A stretch of 46,095 nt of DNA, taken from positions 1-46,095 of the forward strand of contig NZ_JACJJP010000026.1 in the NCBI RefSeq assembly GCF_016900095.1, read 5' to 3'. Made by a program: the position numbers and the translations under genes. Source of the DNA: Gemmiger formicilis (GTDB lineage Bacteria > Bacillota > Clostridia > Oscillospirales > Ruminococcaceae). Position 1 is the stretch's first letter; every line of letters starts with the position of its first letter. The notes below the pieces were generated by a model. That model saw only the letters and a program-made list of their open reading frames with translations, made no database searches and was not told the DNA's origin. Shown one piece after another: positions 130 through 19,459 of the stretch.

Positions 130-966
130 TTACAGGACCTGGTGTTCGGGCACCGGAGCGTCCACCGAGGTGGGTTTTCCTTCCACCCAATGGATGACCT
201 TCTTCGGGCACTTGGTCACGCAGGTACCGCAGCCGTTGCACTTGGTGTAGTCGATGACGGCCACGTTGTTCTTGAGGAAGATGGCCTGCTGCGGGCAGTT
301 CTTGACGCACAGGCCGCAGGCAATGCAGCCCACCTTGCAGGTCTTGTTGACAATGGCACCACGGTCGGTGTTGGAGCATTCCACCACAGGCTGGGGCGCG
401 ATGGGCTTCATGTCGATGACATGGCGCGGGCAGACGTTCATGCAGGCGGAACAGCCGGTGCACTTGGTGCGGTCCACCACGGCCACGCCGTTCTTCACAT
501 GGATGGCGTCGAACATGCAGGCGCGGGTGCAGTCACCCAGGCCCAGGCAGCCGAAGGCGCAGGCGCTGGGGCCACCGGCCACAGAAGCCGCCGCGGCGCA
601 GGTCTGGATGCCCTGGTAGCTGAACCGCTGGCCGCAGTTTTCGCCGCCGTTGCACAGGACAACCGCCTTCAGGCTGGGGCGGTCGCTGGTTTCGCTGCCC
701 ATGATGGTGTTGATGGCATCGGCCACCTTGTCGCCGCCGGGGGCGCACTTGAAGGTGGGCGCACCGTCCTCCACAATGGCCTTGGCGTAGTCGGCACAGC
801 CAGCGTAGCCGCAGCCGCCGCAGTTGGCGCCTGCCAGGCAGGCGGTGATTTCCGCAATGCGCGGGTCTTCGTACACGGCCATAAACTTGGAAGCCAGCAC
901 CAGAACGATACTGCCCACCAGGCCCAGCACAGCCAGGACGGCGACCGCAAGAATGATCGGATTCAT
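130..966 (-). CDS. rnfB: Rnf complex subunit B, iron-sulfur electron-input subunit
   Basis: 278 aa. RnfB takes electrons from ferredoxin at the cytoplasmic face and passes them into the Rnf complex (ferredoxin:NAD+ oxidoreductase, ion pumping). Visible: an N-terminal membrane helix (about residues 4-26), then the 4Fe-4S domain with CxxCxxxxC spacing in ANCGGCGYAGC, then a row of ferredoxin-type motifs (CTGCSACMNVCP, CIACGLCVKNCP, CNGCGTCVTKCP plus a less regular GLGDCTRACMF). This domain order is diagnostic. It is the last gene of the operon, 20 nt after rnfA, with GGAGG before ATG. No convincing terminator is visible in the 129 bases that remain before the window edge. Confidence 0.96.
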   Translation of the reverse strand: MNPIILAVAVLAVLGLVGSIVLVLASKFMAVYEDPRIAEITACLAGANCGGCGYAGCADYAKAIVEDGAPTFKCAPGGDKVADAINTIMGSETSDRPSLKAVVLCNGGENCGQRFSYQGIQTCAAAASVAGGPSACAFGCLGLGDCTRACMFDAIHVKNGVAVVDRTKCTGCSACMNVCPRHVIDMKPIAPQPVVECSNTDRGAIVNKTCKVGCIACGLCVKNCPQQAIFLKNNVAVIDYTKCNGCGTCVTKCPKKVIHWVEGKPTSVDAPVPEHQVL

Positions 967-986
967 ACTTAGTCCCCCTCCTTCTG

Positions 987-1625
987 TTACAGCAGTGCGT
1001 TGATGATGTTTTCAACCAGGCCGCCGAAGCCCATGAAACTCATCGAGGTGATGGCCGCCGACACCAGGGTGATGGGCAGGCCCTTGAAGCTTTCCGGCGG
1101 GTTGGAGGATTCCACACGCTGGCGCACGCCGCAGAACAGCAGCATGGCCACCAGGAAGCCCACACCGGCGCCGGCCGCGCAGATCAGCGCTTCGGCGTAA
1201 GCCATGCCGAAGCCCTGGGCGGTGACGATCTCAGAGTAGTCCTGCACGGCCAGGATGGTGACGCCCAGCACGCAGCAGTTGGTGGTGATCAGGGGCAGGT
1301 ACACGCCCAGGGCGGTGTACAGGGCGGGCACGTACTTCTTCAGGGTGATCTCGATGAGCTGAACCAGCACGGCGATGACCAGAATGAAGACGACGGTCTG
1401 CATGTAGCCCAGATCATAGGCGTCCAGCAGGAAGATCTGCAGCGGGAAGGTCACCGCCGTGGCGATGACCATGACGAAGATGACCGCCAGGCCCATGCCG
1501 GTGGAGGAGTCCACCTTTTTGGAGACACCCAGGAAGGGGCAGATGCCCAGGAACTGAACCAGAACGTAGTTGTTGACCAGAATCAGGTTGAAGAAGATGG
1601 TTGCAAACACGGCAAGGTTATTCAT
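987..1625 (-). CDS. rnfA: Rnf complex subunit A, membrane subunit
   Basis: 212 aa, about six membrane helices. With RnfE it forms the inverted-repeat pair that holds a [2Fe-2S] cluster in the middle of the membrane in Rnf/Nqr complexes. The expected cysteines are present: Cys29 in FLGICPFLGVSKK and Cys117 in TTNCCVLG. The C-terminal half carries the conserved PESFKGLPITLVSAAI stretch. Its start codon overlaps the stop of rnfE as ATGA, which suggests translational coupling. Length and motifs are typical. It is the canonical reference for the divergent paralogue at 16200-16850. Confidence 0.96.
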   Translation of the reverse strand: MNNLAVFATIFFNLILVNNYVLVQFLGICPFLGVSKKVDSSTGMGLAVIFVMVIATAVTFPLQIFLLDAYDLGYMQTVVFILVIAVLVQLIEITLKKYVPALYTALGVYLPLITTNCCVLGVTILAVQDYSEIVTAQGFGMAYAEALICAAGAGVGFLVAMLLFCGVRQRVESSNPPESFKGLPITLVSAAITSMSFMGFGGLVENIINALL

Positions 1626-2308
1626 GCCTGGTCACCCCCTTCGGATTTGGCGGCGTCGATCTCGTCCAGCATGACTTCGCCGCAGGTCTTGCGCTCAATG
1701 GGATGGTTGGTCTTCTTTTCGATGAAGACGCACAGGGCCATCAGGCAGCCGAAGACGAAGAAGCCGCCGGGAGCCTGGTTCATCAGGCCCATGCGATCCA
1801 CACTTTCGGGGATGATGGTGATGCCCATCCAGGAACCGTTGCCGATGATCTCACGCACGCTGGACATGAGCAGCATGGTGATGATGTAGCCCAGGCCCAT
1901 GCCCACGCCGTCCACAGCGGATTCCACCACCGTGTGCTTGCAGGCGAACATTTCGGCGCGGCCCAGGATGATGCAGTTGACCACGATCAGGGCCAGGAAG
2001 ACACCCAGGGAGTCATACAGATCCTGGGCGTAGGCTTCCAGCACCATCTGAACGACGGTCACGAAGGTTGCGATGATGACGATGTAGCAGGGCAGATGCA
2101 CCTTGTCCGGAATGGCCTTGCGCAGGGCGGAAATGACGATGTTGGAGCAGACCAGAACGAAGGTCATGGACAGGCCCATGCCCAGAGCGCCGGACACGGT
2201 GGTGGTCACGGCCAGGGCCGAGCAGCAGCCCAGCACCAGGCGCAGAACCGGGTTTTCACGGATAATACCGGCGGTGAAGATCTTCCACAGGCTTTGTTTT
2301 TCGCTCAT
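1622..2308 (-). CDS. rnfE: Rnf complex subunit E, membrane subunit
   Basis: 228 aa from the ATG at 2308. A TTG six bases upstream is in frame, but the GGGGG ribosome binding site is better placed for the ATG. RnfE pairs with RnfA in the membrane. The cluster ligands are Cys29 (in LGCCSALAV, where the family usually reads LGLCPxLAV) and Cys112 (VNCIILGR). NPVLRLVLG at the first half-helix and the MLLMSSVREIIG stretch are family hallmarks. The start lies 2 nt after the rnfG stop, and the stop overlaps the rnfA start. Confidence 0.95.
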   Translation of the reverse strand: MSEKQSLWKIFTAGIIRENPVLRLVLGCCSALAVTTTVSGALGMGLSMTFVLVCSNIVISALRKAIPDKVHLPCYIVIIATFVTVVQMVLEAYAQDLYDSLGVFLALIVVNCIILGRAEMFACKHTVVESAVDGVGMGLGYIITMLLMSSVREIIGNGSWMGITIIPESVDRMGLMNQAPGGFFVFGCLMALCVFIEKKTNHPIERKTCGEVMLDEIDAAKSEGGDQA

Positions 2309-2310
2309 GG

Positions 2311-2895
2311 TCAAGCCACCCCCTTGATCTCATTGTTGTAGCAGTCGATGGCACTGTTGTAGGCCGAGATGACTGCGTTGGAAGAAATGGTGGCACCCGC
2401 GATGGTATCCACGGGGTTGCCGGCGGACACATGCTGGGAGGCATCCCAGCCCAGGAAGCCGGACCAGAAACTTTCGTTCTGGGTCTTGGAACCGATGCCG
2501 GTGGTCTGGGTGGAAGCGTCCACGCTGGTGGCCAGAATCTTGCCGGAAGCGTCAAAGGAAACATAGACAACCACTTCCTTGCCGCTGTAGCCGGAGCCGG
2601 AAGCCTTGATGGCCACCAGACCGTCGGCGGTGGTCACGGCGCCCTGCACACCGGGGGTCTGCAGGTTTTCCACCGTGGTCAGGGCGGAAGGATCGGTCAC
2701 GCCGGGCAGAACGCCCATGTAGGCTTCCTGGGTGGCGATTTCCTGGTTGGTCTTGATGATGGGTTTGGTCACATCGTTCAGTGCTGCCAGGGCCGCGCTG
2801 CACACCACACAGATCACCACCAGAATGATGACCGGGTAGATCATGGTCTTGAAAGCGGACTCCTGCGCGGGGGTCTTTGCATTCTTCTCAGCCAT
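2311..2895 (-). CDS. rnfG: Rnf complex subunit G, FMN-binding periplasmic-facing subunit
   Basis: 194 aa with one N-terminal membrane helix (about residues 18-38) and an outside FMN-binding domain. RnfG carries FMN attached covalently to a threonine by ApbE. The motif here is DTIAGATISSNAV, so Thr169 is the expected attachment residue; the serine usual at the start of the SGAT motif is alanine. The FWSGFLGWDASQ stretch before it also fits an FMN-binding domain. No apbE lies in this window. The start codon overlaps the rnfD stop by one base (TGATG). Confidence 0.94.
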   Translation of the reverse strand: MAEKNAKTPAQESAFKTMIYPVIILVVICVVCSAALAALNDVTKPIIKTNQEIATQEAYMGVLPGVTDPSALTTVENLQTPGVQGAVTTADGLVAIKASGSGYSGKEVVVYVSFDASGKILATSVDASTQTTGIGSKTQNESFWSGFLGWDASQHVSAGNPVDTIAGATISSNAVISAYNSAIDCYNNEIKGVA

Positions 2896-3875
2896 CAGGC
2901 GTTGCCCCCTTCCTTGGCCGCGGCTTTGGCGGCCTTTTTCTTTTTGGGTTTGGTGTAGCCCAGCGGGATCTGGTGGCTCCAGGCGTTGAACCAGGGCACC
3001 AGCAGGTTGCCCAGCAGGATGGCGAAACTCATACCTTCGTTCATGCTGCCGAAGTAACGGATGGCGAAGGTCACCAGGCCGATGAAGATGCCGTACATCA
3101 GCTTGCCCTTGGTGGTGAAGGGACTGGTGACGTAGTCGGTGGCCATGAAGACGGCACCGAACAGCAGGCCGCCGGCCATGATCTCGGCCACGGCAGCGTG
3201 CAGGCTGCCGGTGGCGATCCAGGAGAGCACGAACACGGTGCCCACAATGCTGCCCGGAATGGCAAAGCCGATGGTGCCGGTGGCCAGCAGGTAGACCAGG
3301 CCCAGCAGGATGGCCAGGATGCAGGTCTCACCCATCATGCCGCCGTGCAGGCCCAGGAACAGATCCACCAGACTGACGGTGGTCTTGTCCACGCTGTCGG
3401 CCAGCGGGGTGGCGGAAGCCAGGGCATCCACCGCCATGTCGGGGTAGACGTACGCGGTCATGCGGGCGGTAAAGCTGAGGAACAGCACGATACGGCCCAC
3501 CAGTGCCGGGTTGGCAAAGTTGAAGCCGATGCCGCCGAACAGCTGCTTGACCACCACAATGGACACAAAGGCGCCCACCACGCAGATCCACAGAGGCAGA
3601 CCCACGGGGAAGTTCAGCGCCAGGATCACGCCGGTGACGCAGGCGGAAAGGTCGCCCACCGGGTTGGGTTTCTTCATGATCAGGCAGTACAGATACTCAA
3701 AAGCCACACAGGCCAGCGTGGTGACGACCACGCTGATGAGGGCCTCGTAGCCGAAGATCAGCGCCGCCGCGACAACGCAGGGCACCAGCGCCTTGAGCAC
3801 GTTGCCCATCAGGCCGCGGGTGCTGGAGTCGTCCCGGATGTGGGGCGAGGCAGTTACGAGCAAAACCTGGTCCAT
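2895..3875 (-). CDS. rnfD: Rnf complex subunit D, covalent-flavin membrane subunit
   Basis: 326 aa, polytopic, NqrB/RnfD family. Family markers: FGGIGFNFANPALVGR (about residues 113-128) and the flavinylation motif ASATPL with Thr156 as the likely FMN attachment residue. Near the C-terminus ATDYVTSPFTTKGK and RYFGSMNEGMSFAILLGN are typical. A GGGAGG ribosome binding site precedes the ATG and overlaps the end of rnfC. It ends in a lysine-rich cytoplasmic tail. It is the template for recognising the paralogue at 17732-18757. Confidence 0.96.
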   Translation of the reverse strand: MDQVLLVTASPHIRDDSSTRGLMGNVLKALVPCVVAAALIFGYEALISVVVTTLACVAFEYLYCLIMKKPNPVGDLSACVTGVILALNFPVGLPLWICVVGAFVSIVVVKQLFGGIGFNFANPALVGRIVLFLSFTARMTAYVYPDMAVDALASATPLADSVDKTTVSLVDLFLGLHGGMMGETCILAILLGLVYLLATGTIGFAIPGSIVGTVFVLSWIATGSLHAAVAEIMAGGLLFGAVFMATDYVTSPFTTKGKLMYGIFIGLVTFAIRYFGSMNEGMSFAILLGNLLVPWFNAWSHQIPLGYTKPKKKKAAKAAAKEGGNA

Positions 3876-3877
3876 CG

Positions 3878-5212
3878 TTACTTACCTCCCTTACGCATTT
3901 CGCTGAGATACCACGCCTTGGCCTGGGTGACAGCCTGGGACACGGGGCGTTTGGCCGGGCAGACATAGGTGCAGCTGCCGCAGGCCACGCACAGATCCAC
4001 GCACAGGCTCTTCAGGGCCGCGGTATCCTTCTTGTTGTGATTTTCCACAATGACCACCGGTTCCAGACCCATGGGGCAGGCGCTGATGCACCGGCCGCAG
4101 CGGATGCAGGGCTGGGCGGCGGGCAGCTGGGCGGCCTTGCGGCTGAACAGCAGCAGGCCGTTGTTCTGCTTGAGCACCGGGAAATCGGCGCTGGGCGAAG
4201 CGCCGCCCATCATGGGGCCGCCGAAGATGATCTTGCCCAGTTCCACGTCCGGCTTGATGCCGCCGCAGGCTTCGATGACATCCCGGTACAGGGTGCCGAT
4301 GGGCACTTCGATGTTCTGGGGCTTGGCAATGGCGTCGCCGTCCACGGTGACACGCTTACTGACCAGAGGAATACCCGTTTTGAGGTACTTGCCCAGGGTG
4401 GACACAGAGGTCACGTTCATGACGATGCAGCCGCAGTCCGCCGGCAGGCCCGCCTTGCCGGAAGGTCCGATCTGGGGCACTTCCCGGCCGGTGCAGGTTT
4501 CCACCAGGGTTTTCTCGGCGCCCTGGGGATAGCGCATGGGCAGCGGCTTGACCGAAACGCCCTTCATATCCCGGGTCAGGGAGCACATCAGATCGATGCA
4601 GGCCGGCTTGTTGCGCTCAATGCCGATGATGCAGTTGGGGATTTCGCAGTACTTCATGACCGCCTGGATGCCGGACAGGATGGTATCGCTGCATTCCAGC
4701 ATTTCCCGGGCGTCGGTGGTCAGGTAGGGCTCACACTCGGCCGCATTGATGAGCAGGGTGTCCACCTTGGCCATGAGCTTGACGTGGGTCGGGAAACCCG
4801 CACCGCCCACGCCCACCAGGCCGCAGGCCTGGATGGCTGCCAGCAGAGAGTCCTTGTCGGTGACCGTGGGCGGCACACAGGCCGGGTCAACGGTCTGGTT
4901 GCCGTCGCACTGGATGGCCACGGCCTGGCACACCGGGCCGTTGACCATGCGCATGGGCGCCACGTCAACCACCGTGCCGGACACGCTGGAGTGGATATTG
5001 GCACTGACAAAACCGCCGGCTTTGCCGATCAGGGTGCCAACGAACACCTGATCGCCCTTTTTGACGACGGGTTCCGCCGGGGCGCCGATGTGCATCGACA
5101 TGGGAATGACGACGTTCTTGGGCACCGGCATGCGTACGGTGGGCATGTCGGCCGTCGATTTCTCATGCGGAACACGGGCACCCTTGGCGGAGCGCTTCAG
5201 GATTTTGAACAT
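3878..5212 (-). CDS. rnfC: Rnf complex subunit C, NADH/FMN and iron-sulfur subunit
   Basis: 444 aa from the ATG at 5212, chosen because a GGGGG-type ribosome binding site precedes it; an in-frame ATG at 5257 has a poorer site and would add 15 residues. RnfC is the cytoplasmic subunit that reduces NAD+. Visible: barrel-sandwich N-terminus, the nucleotide/FMN region GLVGVGGAGFPTHVKL, ECEPYLTTDARE, and two C-terminal 4Fe-4S motifs (CIRCGRCISACPMG and CVACGSCTYVCPAKRP). It is the first gene of the operon; the order C-D-G-E-A-B is the usual clostridial one. Confidence 0.96.
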   Translation of the reverse strand: MFKILKRSAKGARVPHEKSTADMPTVRMPVPKNVVIPMSMHIGAPAEPVVKKGDQVFVGTLIGKAGGFVSANIHSSVSGTVVDVAPMRMVNGPVCQAVAIQCDGNQTVDPACVPPTVTDKDSLLAAIQACGLVGVGGAGFPTHVKLMAKVDTLLINAAECEPYLTTDAREMLECSDTILSGIQAVMKYCEIPNCIIGIERNKPACIDLMCSLTRDMKGVSVKPLPMRYPQGAEKTLVETCTGREVPQIGPSGKAGLPADCGCIVMNVTSVSTLGKYLKTGIPLVSKRVTVDGDAIAKPQNIEVPIGTLYRDVIEACGGIKPDVELGKIIFGGPMMGGASPSADFPVLKQNNGLLLFSRKAAQLPAAQPCIRCGRCISACPMGLEPVVIVENHNKKDTAALKSLCVDLCVACGSCTYVCPAKRPVSQAVTQAKAWYLSEMRKGGK

Positions 5213-5290
5213 GGATCCTGTTCCCCCATTCCTTTGTTTCTCTTTCTGACGGGCCATTTACCGCCAAAAAGACAAAATAATACATGGTTT

Positions 5291-13480: not shown

Positions 13481-14317
13481 TTATTCGGCGCGGCGGTACA
13501 AAAGAAACCGGAAGCCGATCTCGGTGGTCAGGCCGGGGCATGCCGCCAGCCGGTCCGCCCCTTCGGGGGGCGTGTTGAAGTAATAGGGGGTCATGGCAAA
13601 CAGGGCCTGGGCCATGGCGTTGTCCAGGGTGATGGTGTCGGTGACGGTGCGCTCCCCCGCCGGGACAAAACCGGGATACTCGGTGCGGATGGCCGGGTTC
13701 TCGTAAGGCTGGTCGTACAGCACCTGTTTCAGCCCGAAAAGATGCCGCGGGGTGGGCACCGCGTAGATCAGCCACCCGCCGGGACGCAGCATGCGGGAAA
13801 ATTCCGCCGCCGCAAAGGGTGAAAACACGTTGAGCAGGATATCGGCCCAGCCGTCGGCCACCGGGGCGCAGAAACTGCCCCCCACCGCAAAGGCGCCTTC
13901 CGGCACCAGCTTGGCCGCCAGGCGCACCGCCAGTTTGGACAGATCAAACCCGATGAGCCGGGGTTCCGCCCCGGCCGCCGTCAGCGTATCCACCACGGTA
14001 CGGTCGTAACTGCCCTCGCCGCAGCCCGCGTCCACAATATTCGGCGTCTTGTACCCCGCCTGCAGGCAGAGTTCCCCCAGGGCACGGCGGAAGGGATCAT
14101 AGGCACCGCTTTGCAGGAATGTCCGCCGGGCCGCCACCATGGCTTTGCCGTCGCCGGGGTCGGCGGCGTGGCGTTTCTGGATGGGCAGCAGGTTCACATA
14201 CCCTTCCCTGGCCATGTCAAAGCTGTGGTTTTTGGCGCAGCGCAGTGCCCGGCCCCAGATGCCCAGCCCGCCGCCGCACACCGGGCAGCGCAGCCCGGCC
14301 GCCTGTGCGGCGTTCAT
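13481..14317 (-). CDS. rlmA: 23S rRNA (guanine-N1)-methyltransferase, RlmA type
   Basis: 278 aa. Methylates a guanine in helix 35 of 23S rRNA (G745 or G748 by E. coli numbering, depending on subtype). The N-terminal zinc site is Cys11, Cys14, Cys27, His31 (CPVCGG ... CAKNHSFD), followed by the family marker AREGYVNLLP. The SAM-binding motif is IVDAGCGEGSYD (about 94-105). The Gram-positive subtype (RlmAII) can affect tylosin-type macrolides; the subtype cannot be fixed by eye. Its start overlaps the stop of the disordered-protein gene as ATGA, so the two are probably translated together. Confidence 0.92.
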   Translation of the reverse strand: MNAAQAAGLRCPVCGGGLGIWGRALRCAKNHSFDMAREGYVNLLPIQKRHAADPGDGKAMVAARRTFLQSGAYDPFRRALGELCLQAGYKTPNIVDAGCGEGSYDRTVVDTLTAAGAEPRLIGFDLSKLAVRLAAKLVPEGAFAVGGSFCAPVADGWADILLNVFSPFAAAEFSRMLRPGGWLIYAVPTPRHLFGLKQVLYDQPYENPAIRTEYPGFVPAGERTVTDTITLDNAMAQALFAMTPYYFNTPPEGADRLAACPGLTTEIGFRFLLYRRAE

Positions 14318-14888: not shown

Positions 14889-16163
14889 TTATACCAGGGC
14901 CCGGCATTCATTGTAGTAACGTTTTTCCTCGGCATGGCCCATGCTGAAGGTCTTGCGGGGCAGCACGCCCCCCAGTACCACGCCCCGGAACAGGTCCGCT
15001 TTCTCGAAGGGCGGCAGCAGGATGGCGGCGGCCTTTTCCCCCGCCAGGCTGCGCACGGCGTCCTCGCCGTGGATGTAGTCCACCCGGCATTCCGGATTCG
15101 CGGCGCACAGATCGGTGAGGAAGGCTTCCACCGTGCCCACCGCCAGCGGCTGCCGGGCATGGGTCAGATGATAGGTTCTGTTCAGGTCCGGGCCGTATAC
15201 CGTGAAGGTCTGTTCCGGGGTTTGCTCCGCTCCGGCATGGGTCTTCTCCCAGGCATCCAGAGCACGGCAGAGTTCCGCGGCCCCCATGCCGAACACCACC
15301 CGGTGGATGGGTTCGATCTCGATGGCCGGGGAATGGACGTTGCACACCTCGGCCAGGCAATACCGGGCGGGATGCACCGCCCGCTGCTCCGGCGTCAGGG
15401 TGGGTTTCAGTTCCTCCCAGTAGGCTTTGGCGGTGGCCAGGGAATGGTTGCCGTCCCCCACCGCCAGCACCATGGGCGGCTGGCCGGCGGCTGCGGGCCA
15501 CCGGGCGGCAAAAGCCTCCGTATTGCCCAGGGCGGACAGGGCCGCATCGATCTGCGCGATCAGTGCCGAGTCCTCCACGGCCCAGCCGGTCAGATGGCCG
15601 CCGCCCAGCATCAGGTCCCCGTCATACAGCCGGGGCAGCCGGTCCTTGCAGCGGCCGATGGGCTCGATGAGGCTGCATCCTTCGTCGTCGGCCAGCATCA
15701 TCACATGGGGTGTTTCCAGCTCGGCGCCCCGGCGGATGGCCAGGCGGGGCGGAATGCGCTCCACCACCGTCTTTTCACTGGGACGGATGGCCGTTTTGGC
15801 CCCCGGTTCATAGCGGTAGGCTTCCAGATCCACCATGCCCACCAGTCCCTGGCGGACACTGCCGTCCATCTGGGTGCGCTCCACATACACATACCCGTGT
15901 ACGGTGCGGGTGAGCACGCTGCGGCGGTATTCTGCCATGGCGGCGCGGATCTCTTCCAGCCGCCGGGGTTCCTCCGGTGTGCCCAGATAGGCTTCGGGCA
16001 GAACGATGTGCAGGGTGCTGGGCTGACCGGCAGCCCGCGCCTCGGCGCGCTGCCAGTATTCCGGCTGGGATGTGAACTGATCCACCGCAATGCAGGCCCA
16101 CGGGTCCAGCGGCACCGAAGAGTCCGGCAGCAGGATCTGCGCCGGCAAGAAGCAATTGGACAT
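14889..16163 (-). CDS. DUF1015 family protein
   Basis: 424 aa from the ATG at 16163, 8 nt after GGAGG; an ATG six codons earlier overlaps that site and is rejected. Family marks: the N-terminal PWACIAVDQFTSQPEYW, the central VGDGNHSLATAKAYWE (236-250; other members often read DGHHR), and the C-terminal LPRKTFSMGHAEEKRYYNECR. Cytoplasmic, no membrane helix. The family is widespread but I know of no settled biochemical role, so I give none. It is 36 nt downstream of the RnfA-like gene and 38 nt upstream of the disordered-protein gene. Confidence 0.88.
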   Translation of the reverse strand: MSNCFLPAQILLPDSSVPLDPWACIAVDQFTSQPEYWQRAEARAAGQPSTLHIVLPEAYLGTPEEPRRLEEIRAAMAEYRRSVLTRTVHGYVYVERTQMDGSVRQGLVGMVDLEAYRYEPGAKTAIRPSEKTVVERIPPRLAIRRGAELETPHVMMLADDEGCSLIEPIGRCKDRLPRLYDGDLMLGGGHLTGWAVEDSALIAQIDAALSALGNTEAFAARWPAAAGQPPMVLAVGDGNHSLATAKAYWEELKPTLTPEQRAVHPARYCLAEVCNVHSPAIEIEPIHRVVFGMGAAELCRALDAWEKTHAGAEQTPEQTFTVYGPDLNRTYHLTHARQPLAVGTVEAFLTDLCAANPECRVDYIHGEDAVRSLAGEKAAAILLPPFEKADLFRGVVLGGVLPRKTFSMGHAEEKRYYNECRALV

Positions 16164-16199: not shown

Positions 16200-16850
16200 T
16201 CAGCGCGCCACGCCGTGGCCCACCAGGCCGTAGATGGCCAGCGACAGAATGCCGATATAAATCAGATAACTGGGCAGACCGCGGAAGATGGCGGGCACGT
16301 CCTTGCTGCCCAGACGGCGGCGGCCTTCGTCCACCACCAGCACGGCAAACAGATACCCTAGCCCGCTGCCGAACCCGAAGGCTATGCACTGCAGCAGGTT
16401 ATAGTTCTGGTTGGAGCAAAGCAGCAAGGTGCCCAGCACACTGCAGGTGCAGGTGGCCAGAGGCAGCTGCTCCCGGCAGGCCGTGCGGTGAACGGCGGGC
16501 AGAAGTCCCAGCAACACCCACACCACCGCCATGGCAATGACCGCACAGGTCAGGTACAGGATGGGGCGCAGGGAGGCAATGGGCAGCCATTCGGGAAGAT
16601 ACAGCCGCAGCTGGGGGGAAACATAGGTCATGCAGGCCCAGCCCAGAGGGGCGCTGAACAGCTGCACCAGGATAACCGGAATGCAATACTGCCAGGTGCT
16701 CACGTCCGGGTCGCTGACCAGCTTGATCAGGCGGGAAACACCCATAGCGCGGGAAAACACCACGTTTTCGGCAAAGACGGCCAGGATCGCGTAGGAGACG
16801 AACTGCGCCACGCCCTGCAAAACCGTCAGTTCAGTGCTTGCGGTCCACAT
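16200..16850 (-). CDS. Divergent RnfA/RsxA/NqrE-like membrane protein
   Basis: 216 aa from ATG at 16850; reading further upstream in this frame gives sequence unlike the family, since it overlaps the RnfE-like gene. Six hydrophobic segments. It aligns with RnfA at both half-helix motifs: ENVVFSRAMGVSRL against NNYVLVQFLGICPF, and LATCTCSVLG against ITTNCCVLG; the tail IFRGLPSYLIYIGILSLAIYGL matches the SFKGLPITLVSAAI region. The first cluster cysteine is Ser39; the second is kept as Cys136. The last gene of the Rnf-like trio, overlapping the E-like gene by 20 nt. Probably a membrane partner of the E- and D-like proteins; function unknown. Confidence 0.82.
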   Translation of the reverse strand: MWTASTELTVLQGVAQFVSYAILAVFAENVVFSRAMGVSRLIKLVSDPDVSTWQYCIPVILVQLFSAPLGWACMTYVSPQLRLYLPEWLPIASLRPILYLTCAVIAMAVVWVLLGLLPAVHRTACREQLPLATCTCSVLGTLLLCSNQNYNLLQCIAFGFGSGLGYLFAVLVVDEGRRRLGSKDVPAIFRGLPSYLIYIGILSLAIYGLVGHGVAR

Positions 16851-17763
16851 ACAGGTGACGCACCTCCTCCTGTTTGTAATGCACGTAGGCGCCGCCCACG
16901 GCGGTCCAGACCGCGGCCACCAGGCCCAGCAGCAGGAACCCGCCCGCCGGCTGGGCTGCCAGCGGCAGCAGCCCCACTTCCAGCACCGGATGCTCGTACA
17001 CAGTGCCGTAGGCCAGCAGCTCCCGCAAGGTACCCATGAGCAGAATGGCCACACACAGGCCGATGGTGTTGTTGATGCCGCGGCGGAAGGCTTCCCCGAT
17101 GGATTCCAGCTCGGTGGCTTCCATCCGCTTGACGATGACCGGCTCCACCACCATCATGGGCAGGTAAATGCCCATGATGGACAGGTCGGTGCCGAAGATA
17201 TAATACATGAGAATATACACCGGGATATAGATGAGGGCCGCCGAATAGGCGTACACCACCGGGCGGAAGCGGTTGCCGGTGATATGGCAGACAGCCACCG
17301 CCAGCATACGGGTGGCGGTGAGCAGCAGAATGGACAGCACGCACAGCATCAGCGCACGGTCCACGTCGCTGGCCATGGCCACAATGGGGGCCAGGCCCAA
17401 GCCGCGGACCATCACCGGGTTGTTCAGCCACAGATGGTCGTCGTGGATGCTCTGGGCCAGTTCGGCCTCGGCCTCGGCCCGGGTTTTGCGGGCGGGACGG
17501 CTGGGCTTGGGCTGGGCGGTCTGCCGGGGCAGTTCGGCCTGCGGTGCCTTGGCCGCCTGGGCGGTCTGGGCCGCGGCGGCGTCCAGAGCTTCCTGTTCTA
17601 CCTGCTGGGCCGTCTTGCCTTCGGCAGCGGCACGGCGGGCACGTTCCAGAACCTCGGGGGAAAGCTGGGGGATGATGACAGTCTGGGAATGTTCCGGCTG
17701 GTTCTTTTTGCGCACCGGGCGGGACGCGGGTTTAGAGGATTTCCGGTTTTGCTCGTTTTGCAA
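16831..17763 (-). CDS. Divergent RnfE/RsxE/NqrD-like membrane protein with long N-terminal extension
   Basis: 310 aa, TTG start at 17763 with AAGGAGG 9 nt upstream. Residues 1-105 are an added charged segment rich in Ala, Gln, Lys, Arg and Glu, partly helical (SPEVLERARRAAAEGKTAQQVEQEAL), absent from normal RnfE (about 200-230 aa). Residues 110-300 match RnfE: NNPVMVRGLGLAPIVAMASDV against ENPVLRLVLGCCSALAVTTTV, and MMVVEPVIVKR against LIVVNCIILGR, then ILLMGTLRELLAYG. Both cluster cysteines are gone (Ala125 and Pro208). It overlaps the D-like gene by 32 nt. Part of the Rnf-like trio; it cannot hold the intramembrane [2Fe-2S] cluster in the known way. Confidence 0.85.
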   Translation of the reverse strand: MQNEQNRKSSKPASRPVRKKNQPEHSQTVIIPQLSPEVLERARRAAAEGKTAQQVEQEALDAAAAQTAQAAKAPQAELPRQTAQPKPSRPARKTRAEAEAELAQSIHDDHLWLNNPVMVRGLGLAPIVAMASDVDRALMLCVLSILLLTATRMLAVAVCHITGNRFRPVVYAYSAALIYIPVYILMYYIFGTDLSIMGIYLPMMVVEPVIVKRMEATELESIGEAFRRGINNTIGLCVAILLMGTLRELLAYGTVYEHPVLEVGLLPLAAQPAGGFLLLGLVAAVWTAVGGAYVHYKQEEVRHLYVDRKH

Positions 17764-18757
17764 GCCGTTTCGCCTCCTTCTTCATAAACTTCATGCGCTC
17801 GGCGCGGCGGGACACGCGGTCCAGCCATTCGGGCACGGCGCCGACGATGAGAAGTGCAAAGCAGACGCCGGTTTCGTACACGGTGTTGTAGCGGAAAACG
17901 GTGGTGGCCACCCCCAGCAGCAGGCCGTAGATCAGCCGGCTGGTAAAACGGTTGGGCTGGGTGACCGGCTCACAGATCAGAAACACACCACCGAAAGCCA
18001 TACCGCCGGTAAGAAGGATATACTTTTCCAGGTACACCCGCTGGCGGATATACTCCCAGGGCAGGCTGAAGGCGGGCAGATCGTTCAGGTTGGGCAGCAG
18101 CCAGGGCACCGCCACGCACACAATGAGATACGGCAGCAGGGTGGACAGCTGCAGATGACCCCGGCAGAGCAGGAACAGCCCGCAGGCCACAATGACCAGG
18201 AACGCCCCGGTACCCAGCGGTCCGGTGACGTTGCCGGTGAGCAGGTTCATGGTGGTGGCCGAGGGCAGACCGCCTCCGGACAGGGTGGTGTTCATGCCGA
18301 CGGCGGTGGAGATGGTATCGTTGCCCCACAAAGGCAGCACAGTGCCGGGGGTGGGATAGCGGGTCATCTGGTTGGGCCAGGAAAGCGCCGCCACCGCCAC
18401 GCCCACCGCCGCCGGGTGGAAGGGATAGTGGCCTTCACCGCCGAAGGCTTCCTTGATCAGCACCGCCATGATCACCGCGGCCACCACCATGAAGTAGGAC
18501 ACGGAGGCCGGCATCATCAGCACGATCAGGGCGGCAAAGCACTCGCTGGAAGGTTCGTGGGGACGATACCCCGCCCCGTGCAGCGGCGTGACCAGGCAAT
18601 CGCAGACATAGGCCGTGAACAGCCCCACCAGCATCAGCAGAATCGGCCGGGGACCATAGTAGAACCAGGACATGGCCATAAGCGGCACGCAGCACCACAA
18701 TACGTCTGCATAGTAGTCATAGTTGGCGCTGCGCTCAATCTTGTTTCGGTTTGGCAT
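17732..18757 (-). CDS. Divergent RnfD/NqrB-like membrane protein with probable flavinylation site
   Basis: 341 aa, about ten hydrophobic segments. RnfD/NqrB marks: FGGEGHYPFHPAAVG (105-119) against FGGIGFNFANPALVG in the rnfD above, and LPSATTM (164-170) against LASATPL, so Thr168 is the likely FMN-attachment residue. GGMAFGGVFLICEPVTQPN and TVFRYNTVYETGVCFALLIVG match the C-terminal region ATDYVTSPF ... GSMNEGMSFAILLGN. GGAGAG precedes ATG. It is 39 nt after rpe. No B-, C- or G-type partner lies next to it, so electron donor and acceptor are unknown. Ends in a basic cytoplasmic tail. Confidence 0.86.
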   Translation of the reverse strand: MPNRNKIERSANYDYYADVLWCCVPLMAMSWFYYGPRPILLMLVGLFTAYVCDCLVTPLHGAGYRPHEPSSECFAALIVLMMPASVSYFMVVAAVIMAVLIKEAFGGEGHYPFHPAAVGVAVAALSWPNQMTRYPTPGTVLPLWGNDTISTAVGMNTTLSGGGLPSATTMNLLTGNVTGPLGTGAFLVIVACGLFLLCRGHLQLSTLLPYLIVCVAVPWLLPNLNDLPAFSLPWEYIRQRVYLEKYILLTGGMAFGGVFLICEPVTQPNRFTSRLIYGLLLGVATTVFRYNTVYETGVCFALLIVGAVPEWLDRVSRRAERMKFMKKEAKRLAKRAKPEIL

Positions 18758-18796: not shown

Positions 18797-19459
18797 TTAT
18801 AAGGCGTGGATGCCCGCCGCCATGGCGGACATATCGGGTGCATTGTAAAAAGCACTGCCCACCACCAGGACATCGGCCCCGGCTTGGGTGCACAGTGGTG
18901 CGGTCTGGGTGTTGACGCCGCCGTCCACCTGCACCATGACCGAAAGGCCGCGGCGTTCCAGTTCGGCGCGCACGGCCGCCAGGCGCTGGGACGTCTGGGG
19001 CAGGAAGGACTGGCCGCCGAAACCGGGTTCCACGCTCATGATGAGCACCAGTTCCACCTGGTCCAGGTAGGGAAACAGTTCTTCCACCGGGGTGCCGGGG
19101 CGGACGCTGAGCCCGGCCTTGCAGCCCAGGTCGTGGATGGCCTGCAGCACCGCCTTGGGGTCCTTGCGGACGCCTTCGGCTTCCAGATGCACGGTGATCA
19201 GATCAGCCCCCGCCGCAGCAAAGTCCTTGGCGTAGAAGGCCGGGTCCTCGATCATCAGGTGCACGTCGTAAAAGGCGTCGGGCAGAGCCTTGTGCAGGCA
19301 CTTGAGCACCGGGGCGCCATAGCTGATGTTGGGCACAAAGTGACCATCCATCACGTCAATGTGCAGCATGTCCGCACCGGCATCCAGGGCGGCCCGGCTC
19401 TGTGCGGCCAGATTGGCCAGGTCGGCCGAAAGGACCGACACACTCAGTTTTGTTTGCAT
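18797..19459 (-). CDS. rpe: Ribulose-phosphate 3-epimerase
   Basis: 220 aa, TIM barrel. Interconverts ribulose-5-phosphate and xylulose-5-phosphate in the pentose phosphate pathway. Metal and catalytic residues are in place: His33 and Asp35 in LHIDVMDGHFVPNISYG, His67 in YDVHLMIEDP, Asp179 in VQVDGGVNTQTA; the glycine-rich phosphate loop is EPGFGGQSF. AAAGGAA precedes ATG. It has a good promoter (19527-19555) and a leader hairpin, and is probably the first gene of the unit that continues through the Rnf-like trio to rlmA. In many Firmicutes rpe follows rsgA (engC); that gene is not here. Confidence 0.95.
   Translation of the reverse strand: MQTKLSVSVLSADLANLAAQSRAALDAGADMLHIDVMDGHFVPNISYGAPVLKCLHKALPDAFYDVHLMIEDPAFYAKDFAAAGADLITVHLEAEGVRKDPKAVLQAIHDLGCKAGLSVRPGTPVEELFPYLDQVELVLIMSVEPGFGGQSFLPQTSQRLAAVRAELERRGLSVMVQVDGGVNTQTAPLCTQAGADVLVVGSAFYNAPDMSAMAAGIHAL

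Follow-up and report, generated by a model that had tools for sequence, protein, structure and literature searches.

What can three Rnf-like membrane genes still do once the residues that hold the redox cofactors of Rnf are gone? The question was raised by a trio, here called D', E' and A', on the minus strand of a 46,095-nucleotide stretch of Gemmiger formicilis DNA (contig NZ_JACJJP010000026.1; "the window" is this whole stretch). D' (17732..18757, 341 residues) is RnfD/NqrB-like, E' (16831..17763) is RnfE/NqrD-like, and A' (16200..16850, 216 residues) is RnfA/NqrE-like and starts at an ATG (16850) that lies inside the 3' end of E'. We propose that an Rnf lost its redox centres stepwise, and that D'E'A' of Gemmiger and Faecalibacterium would now be a redox-free cation or solute carrier. 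The loss of redox centres, taken alone and without transport, is very probable; for the whole proposal our confidence stops a little short of even.

Membership of the trio in the Rnf/Nqr superfamily was seen in the Pfam matches. D' matched PF03116, NQR2_RnfD_RnfE (1.9e-48; 165.8 bits, cut-off 27.7), and E' and A' matched PF02508, Rnf-Nqr (1.1e-25 and 91.2 bits; 9.2e-20, for the frame from 16844, and 71.8 bits; cut-off 23.8 for each). In NCBIfam, all three fell below the rnfD, rnfE and rnfA cut-offs (D', 107.6 versus 207.05 bits; E', 64.5 versus 213.4; A', 73.5 versus 229.3), which the window's canonical RnfD, RnfE and RnfA passed. These canonical genes are part of an rnf operon at 130-5257, 11 kb from the trio. 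Its RnfC, RnfG and RnfB were named from gene order and, as queries, retrieved six-gene operons in relatives. The window genome held two PF03116 and four PF02508 matches, equal to the canonical operon plus the trio. A first-pass annotation had described three overlapping genes resembling RnfD, RnfE and RnfA with a full rnf operon 11 kb away, and these coordinates and matches agreed with it.

For comparison, 40 loci were taken from 40 genomes of the window's family, chosen from A' matches, mostly the strongest and some weak; shares among these chosen loci are not population frequencies. Joint alignments contained 19 canonical rows and 53 prime rows, of which 20 had an RnfC-like partner, C' (C' rows), and 33 had none (C'-less rows). 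The prime rows included three identical pairs (L143/L052, L155/L059 and L107/L043), leaving 18 distinct C' rows and 32 distinct C'-less rows. L169, picked as canonical, turned out to be prime and was regrouped before counting. The D' alignment (A3) used 37 of 41 rows (L039, L060, L061 and L068 omitted), and the C' alignment (A5) used 14 of 15 (L067 omitted). Another 80 named loci, several of them incomplete, were collected through an A' search; of the 78 that had no C', 75 entered the residue counts for D', 77 those for E' and 78 those for A'.

Four cysteines of RnfA and RnfE hold an intramembrane [2Fe-2S] cluster, according to excerpts of PMC9325719. At these columns Ser39 of A' and Ala125 and Pro208 of E' replaced Cys in the window, and Cys136 of A' was retained, so that the window kept one of the four cysteines of Rnf. 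The joint alignment reproduced the residues first reported. Neither of the E' cysteines was kept in any of the 53 prime rows, and both were present in 19/19 canonical rows. The first A' cysteine was likewise found in 0/53 prime versus 19/19 canonical rows, and the second in 34/53 versus 19/19. The family alignment that the first-pass annotation had proposed as a check thus identified the cysteine loss as a trait of the clade. A separate observation was an insertion of about 10 residues after the second cluster cysteine in the window's canonical RnfA (987-1625, minus strand), compared with the RnfA of Acetobacterium woodii.

The riboflavin ligands of NqrB are T162, N200, N203 and D346 (excerpts of PMC9325719 and PMC10643135), and their columns were mapped via a HMMER alignment to 7xk3_B. 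In the available text on the A. woodii Rnf (PMC11889175), N123 and D249 serve riboflavin and T156 serves flavin mononucleotide (FMN), and N123A or D249A abolishes activity. The window's D' had Phe74, Tyr111, His114 and Glu263 at the four riboflavin columns.

T162, N200 and N203 were each kept in 19/19 canonical and 20/20 C' rows, and in 6, 3 and 14, respectively, of the 33 C'-less rows. The complete Thr/Asn/Asn set was found in all canonical and all C' rows (18 of the latter distinct) and in 2/33 C'-less rows; 16 of these 33, the window included, had none of the three left. D346 was kept in 19/19 canonical, 16/20 C' and 15/33 C'-less rows, the remainder being mostly Glu. Among the named C'-less loci, the N200 column held Tyr in 74 of 75.

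The FMN-bearing threonine of NqrB we take to be T236, a number that fits the title of entry 9ud3. Thr occupied its column in 19/19 canonical, 2/20 C' and 3/33 C'-less rows (5/53 prime), and the window had Gly154 there; this column is the least certain of the alignment because loop lengths differ. The first-pass annotation had taken PSATTM in D' for the kept flavin threonine. Only one of the 41 D' proteins had this motif at that place; its counterparts in the two genus-mates are PTASTL and PTATTL. On the motif comparison and the column counts we rejected a kept flavin threonine in D'. A machine using one covalent flavin, also suggested at first, found no support: the family has no conserved flavin threonine, and three module genomes had neither a canonical RnfD nor ApbE.

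C' stood directly before D' in 15 of the 40 loci. All 15 C' proteins contained both four-Cys [4Fe-4S] motifs, and all 15 had lost GxGGAGFP, the motif for FMN and reduced nicotinamide adenine dinucleotide (NADH). Complex1_51K gave a weak match in the two C' proteins scanned, above the cut-off in one, and a flavin in C' is therefore still conceivable. The C' form most likely kept a short cytosolic redox arm, from the C' clusters to the D' riboflavin, and the role of this arm might be gating or reporting, not pumping.

RnfB and RnfG were found at the trio in 0/40 loci by single-sequence and profile searches. The silence of the RnfG profile is not proof on its own, because the profile detected 16 of 18 canonical operons and can miss some, but D', E' and A' sit end to end. 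No FMN-binding NqrC/RnfG-type neighbour of the trio was seen in the Pfam scan or in the same searches, with the same caveat for RnfG. The early statement that B, C and G are not adjacent to the trio held for the window; for C it failed in the 15 relatives with an RnfC-like gene before D'.

A C' hidden elsewhere in the C'-less genomes was not found in a search of 26 of them, where the best match reached at most 197 bits versus 413-525 in three C'-bearing controls. The strong RnfC-like matches that were inspected (the window, L158, L159, L173 and L220-L223) were canonical-type RnfC. L220 (genome G028) and L221 (G013) had extra canonical-type RnfC-RnfD-RnfG genes away from the main canonical match, so an additional ordinary Rnf may be present in part of the family.

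The trio is a descendant of Rnf. On a tree built from the concatenated proteins after the trait columns had been taken out (a short search, with several long branches, two of them meeting), the 53 prime rows formed a clade apart from canonical Rnf with a Shimodaira-Hasegawa-like approximate likelihood ratio test (SH-aLRT) support of 100. The C'-less label needed one change on this tree, weakly supported (76). L057, which branches off first within the main C'-less group, had no C' and kept N200 and N203; L073 and L201, also without C', kept all three riboflavin ligands. This suggested that the loss of C' preceded that of the ligands.

The trio is under purifying selection. The ratios of nonsynonymous to synonymous substitution rates (dN/dS) between the window and L095, L077 and L078 were 0.061-0.106 for D', 0.147-0.208 for E' and 0.099-0.162 for A'. 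The rpe gene next to the trio gave 0.138-0.162 with the same three relatives, D' being below it. With five more distant relatives the trio gave 0.158-0.552, still below 1.

Six genomes with the module (G092, G066, G069, G038, G110 and G001) contained a single RnfD-type gene, which was D', and no RnfB above the family cut-off was found in these drafts of 81-94% completeness. ApbE, the flavin transferase, was not found in G092, G066 and G110 (94, 83 and 81% complete) and was present in the other 11 of 14 genomes tested; G069, G038 and G001 had it. The incompleteness of the assemblies weakens the case from absence, for which G092 (94%) is the best example. In G092 (about 1.0 Mb), A', beside rpe, and C'-D'-E' were on separate contigs (L206 and L034).

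In A. woodii RnfE, Na+ is placed beside V106/N107 near the cluster and is gated by the R67-E115 pair (available text of PMC11889175). The N107 column held Asn in 19/19 canonical and 15/20 C' rows, and Glu or Asp in 26/33 C'-less, 2/20 C' (Asp in both) and 0/19 canonical rows. All 77 named C'-less loci had Glu or Asp there, and 74 of the 77 had Pro at the former Cys. The acid gained in the window is Glu207 of E' (codon 17143..17145, minus strand), next to the former cluster cysteine.

The gate pair was largely retained. Arg was found at the R67 column in 25/33 C'-less rows (72/77 named C'-less loci) and Glu at the E115 column in 26/33 (56/77); the window's E' kept Arg167 and Glu215 at these positions. 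The RnfA N112 column held Asn in 49/53 prime rows. Two observations on the RnfE-type proteins of the window are added. Its canonical RnfE has His at the Arg67 position, where 18/19 canonical rows have Arg. Its E' begins with about 100 residues rich in Lys, Pro and Ala (17450-17763, minus strand), an N-terminal extension ahead of the RnfE-like domain; two genus-mates (L037 and L038) have E' frames of similar length, most others being about 220-260 residues.

We interpreted the trio as the membrane core of an old Rnf duplicate that would have given up electron transfer in steps. In the ancestor of the clade, the subunits RnfB and RnfG would have gone, together with the threonine that binds FMN and all but one of the four [2Fe-2S] cysteines. 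What remained would have been the cytosolic arm only, C' with its two [4Fe-4S] motifs and D' with an intact riboflavin site. In Gemmiger/Faecalibacterium-type lineages C' would then have been lost, and the riboflavin ligands afterwards.

In these lineages A'E' keeps the Rnf scaffold and, for the most part, the Arg-Glu gate pair, and it gains Glu/Asp beside the former cluster cysteine. The fixed carboxylate may stand in for the charge of the reduced cluster, holding a cation where the cluster drew Na+. A'E', held by D', would then act as an electron-free alternating-access carrier or a regulated leak for a cation, either Na+ or H+, and a solute might move with it. The homology, the residue losses and gains, the gene context and the purifying selection are shown by the sequences, whereas formation of a complex, movement of an ion, and the identity and direction of that ion are inferred. 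As a general course of evolution in Gemmiger/Faecalibacterium-type gut bacteria, from an electron-driven Rnf to an electron-free ion or solute transporter with a carboxylate replacing the cluster, all redox centres dropped and the intermediates alive in sister lineages, the scheme is tentative. The early suggestion that the complex has taken on a task unrelated to electron transfer, such as transport, was supported and strengthened, since in the window's lineage the FMN threonine and three riboflavin ligands were gone besides the cluster cysteines.

Several observations weigh against the carrier. The change of D346 to Glu is conservative and was also seen in 4/20 C' rows, and a different flavin or another cofactor may sit on new residues. 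The association between C' and the riboflavin ligands is a single evolutionary event, for which a sign test cannot reach significance. The new acid was absent in 7/33 C'-less rows, and two C' rows carried Asp at N107. E115 was kept in just 3/20 C' rows, in which N107 was mostly non-acidic. In RnfA the ion-path residues E88, Q85, Y105 and K32 were mostly lost, and the window's A' has Thr at the N112 column. The predicted A' model was poorest near the lost cysteine, with a predicted local distance difference test (pLDDT) score of 57-67 at residues 21-40.

Electron transfer might still take place, which we consider doubtful. C'/D', or D' alone, would pass electrons from a cytosolic donor via a non-covalent flavin to an acceptor in the membrane or at the surface; in C'-less species another protein would replace C', and Tyr111, His114 and Glu263 would bind the flavin. 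The four-Cys motifs in 15/15 C' proteins and the riboflavin site in 20/20 C' rows agree with this, the conserved Tyr at N200 suggests a specific new role, and for other Nqr/Rnf-like systems it has been proposed that an NqrB-like subunit lacking flavinylation binds a flavin non-covalently (excerpts of PMC10979944). In the window's lineage, however, none of the known redox ligand sets is left and neither an RnfG nor an FMN-binding protein lies next to the trio, and electrons could not cross by the Rnf route in the C' form because it has no membrane cluster and no outer flavins. It is rather improbable that the trio is a sensor, anchor or wall-linked complex that positions or regulates a surface DUF4015 protein, with C' as a redox switch and transport secondary or absent. 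A DUF4015-like gene followed A' in 31/40 loci by clustering (32 by profile) and was present in 47/80 named loci, and three examples matched PF13200; the protein has an N-terminal membrane anchor and probably an outside domain, a layout like that of RnfG. On the other hand, adjacency is not interaction, no such gene was found in the window genome at E 0.01 (a search without a positive control), and none was detected in the three loci of a sister family, f5.

D'E'A' as an alternative core working solely with canonical RnfB, RnfC and RnfG is highly improbable. Most genomes, the window's included, also hold a canonical operon, but the six module genomes described above had the prime RnfD alone and no RnfB above the cut-off, which made a hybrid with canonical Rnf unlikely. 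In addition, the RnfB-contact residues of RnfA, K32, R154 and E158, were mostly changed in the prime rows. The loss of ligands and partners would also be expected of a decaying pseudo-operon, an explanation that we find barely credible. The dN/dS of 0.06-0.21 with the three nearest relatives, and below 1 with distant ones too, ruled out pseudogenes, and a prime A' in 80/80 named loci (found via the A' search), open frames and a newly conserved acid also argue against decay. With these explanations weighed, we continue to favour the redox-free carrier.

In the window the genes run rpe-D'-E'-A'-DUF1015 on the minus strand, each overlapping the next or separated from it by about 40 bases. The rpe gene (18797..19459, minus), for ribulose-phosphate 3-epimerase, matched TIGR01163 above cut-off, and the DUF1015 gene directly downstream of A' (14889..16163, minus) matched PF06245 (2.3e-56). 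The search of many genomes for constant neighbours, recommended in the first pass, placed the trio downstream of rpe in the order D'-E'-A' in 40/40 loci, a few of them with an opposite-strand gene between rpe and the module. The 80 named loci had a prime A' in 80, E' in 79, D' in 78, rpe in 77 and C' in 2, and a DUF1015 match near the trio in 52. They include F. prausnitzii, Gemmiger, Fournierella, Anaerofilum, Ruthenibacterium, Pygmaiobacter and Soleaferrea; the nearest named relatives of the window were Gemmiger and Faecalibacterium records with 84-92% A' identity. Farther along the window, at 13481-14317 (minus), is an RlmA-like 23S rRNA guanine methyltransferase with an RlmA zinc ribbon (PF21302), which scored under the NCBIfam cut-off for each named family that it matched and is probably an ordinary relative.

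The module was seen in two families, that of the window and its sister family f5. In f5 the order rpe-C'-D'-E'-A' was found in three loci (L192-L194), representing 3 of the 8 f5 genomes listed by C' score. Among the matches listed for 393 genomes of the class, down to about 120 bits, A' scores above 160 bits came from the window's family alone (7 of 10 sampled there). Other high-scoring or same-order loci fetched outside the family were canonical, L197-L200 with B and G, as were L195 and L196. Homologues with intact ligands inside ordinary rnf or nqr operons, which would have spoken against a divergent trio, were not seen among the fetched loci; every ordinary operon examined held canonical-type genes.

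The trio is thus an RnfD-RnfE-RnfA core that selection maintains despite the loss of the residues for its redox cofactors. The ion carrier of these complexes is disputed, being RnfA/E in the available text of PMC11889175 and NqrB in that of PMC10643135. A natural trio without cofactor sites bears on which subunit carries the ion, and its ion movement could be measured in liposomes without an electron donor. By family name, the F. prausnitzii and Gemmiger modules could be misannotated as a second Rnf. No description of a D'E'A' module was found in the literature searched, most subscription papers being outside reach.

Compared with Rnf (RnfABCDGE, as in A. woodii 9ERI), the trio has no RnfB or RnfG and has lost [2Fe-2S] cysteines and the FMN threonine, and it scores far under the rnfD, rnfE and rnfA cut-offs; in the window's lineage the riboflavin ligands are gone as well, and C', where present, has no GxGGAGFP. 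It shares the NqrB, NqrD and NqrE folds and some sequence features with the Na+-translocating NADH:quinone oxidoreductase (Na+-NQR, NqrABCDEF), but it has no NqrA, NqrC or NqrF neighbour and has lost the cofactor ligands. A precedent in kind was found in the NQR/RNF-like systems of Meheust 2021 and Huang 2024, where excerpts (PMC8238504 and PMC10979944) describe partial Rnf/Nqr systems and an NqrB/RnfD homologue without the flavinylation site, as in the trio. Those systems, described as two-subunit, pair the homologue with an NqrC/RnfG partner and carry an NAD-binding domain (PF00175) fused C-terminally to the NqrB/RnfD domain, whereas neither was seen here (PF03116 was the only domain in D' in the Pfam scan) and E' and A' are present. 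The Amt/Rh ammonium and urea channels gave no Pfam match to D', whose sequence and best fold match are those of RnfD, and unlike these channels D' comes with E' and A'.

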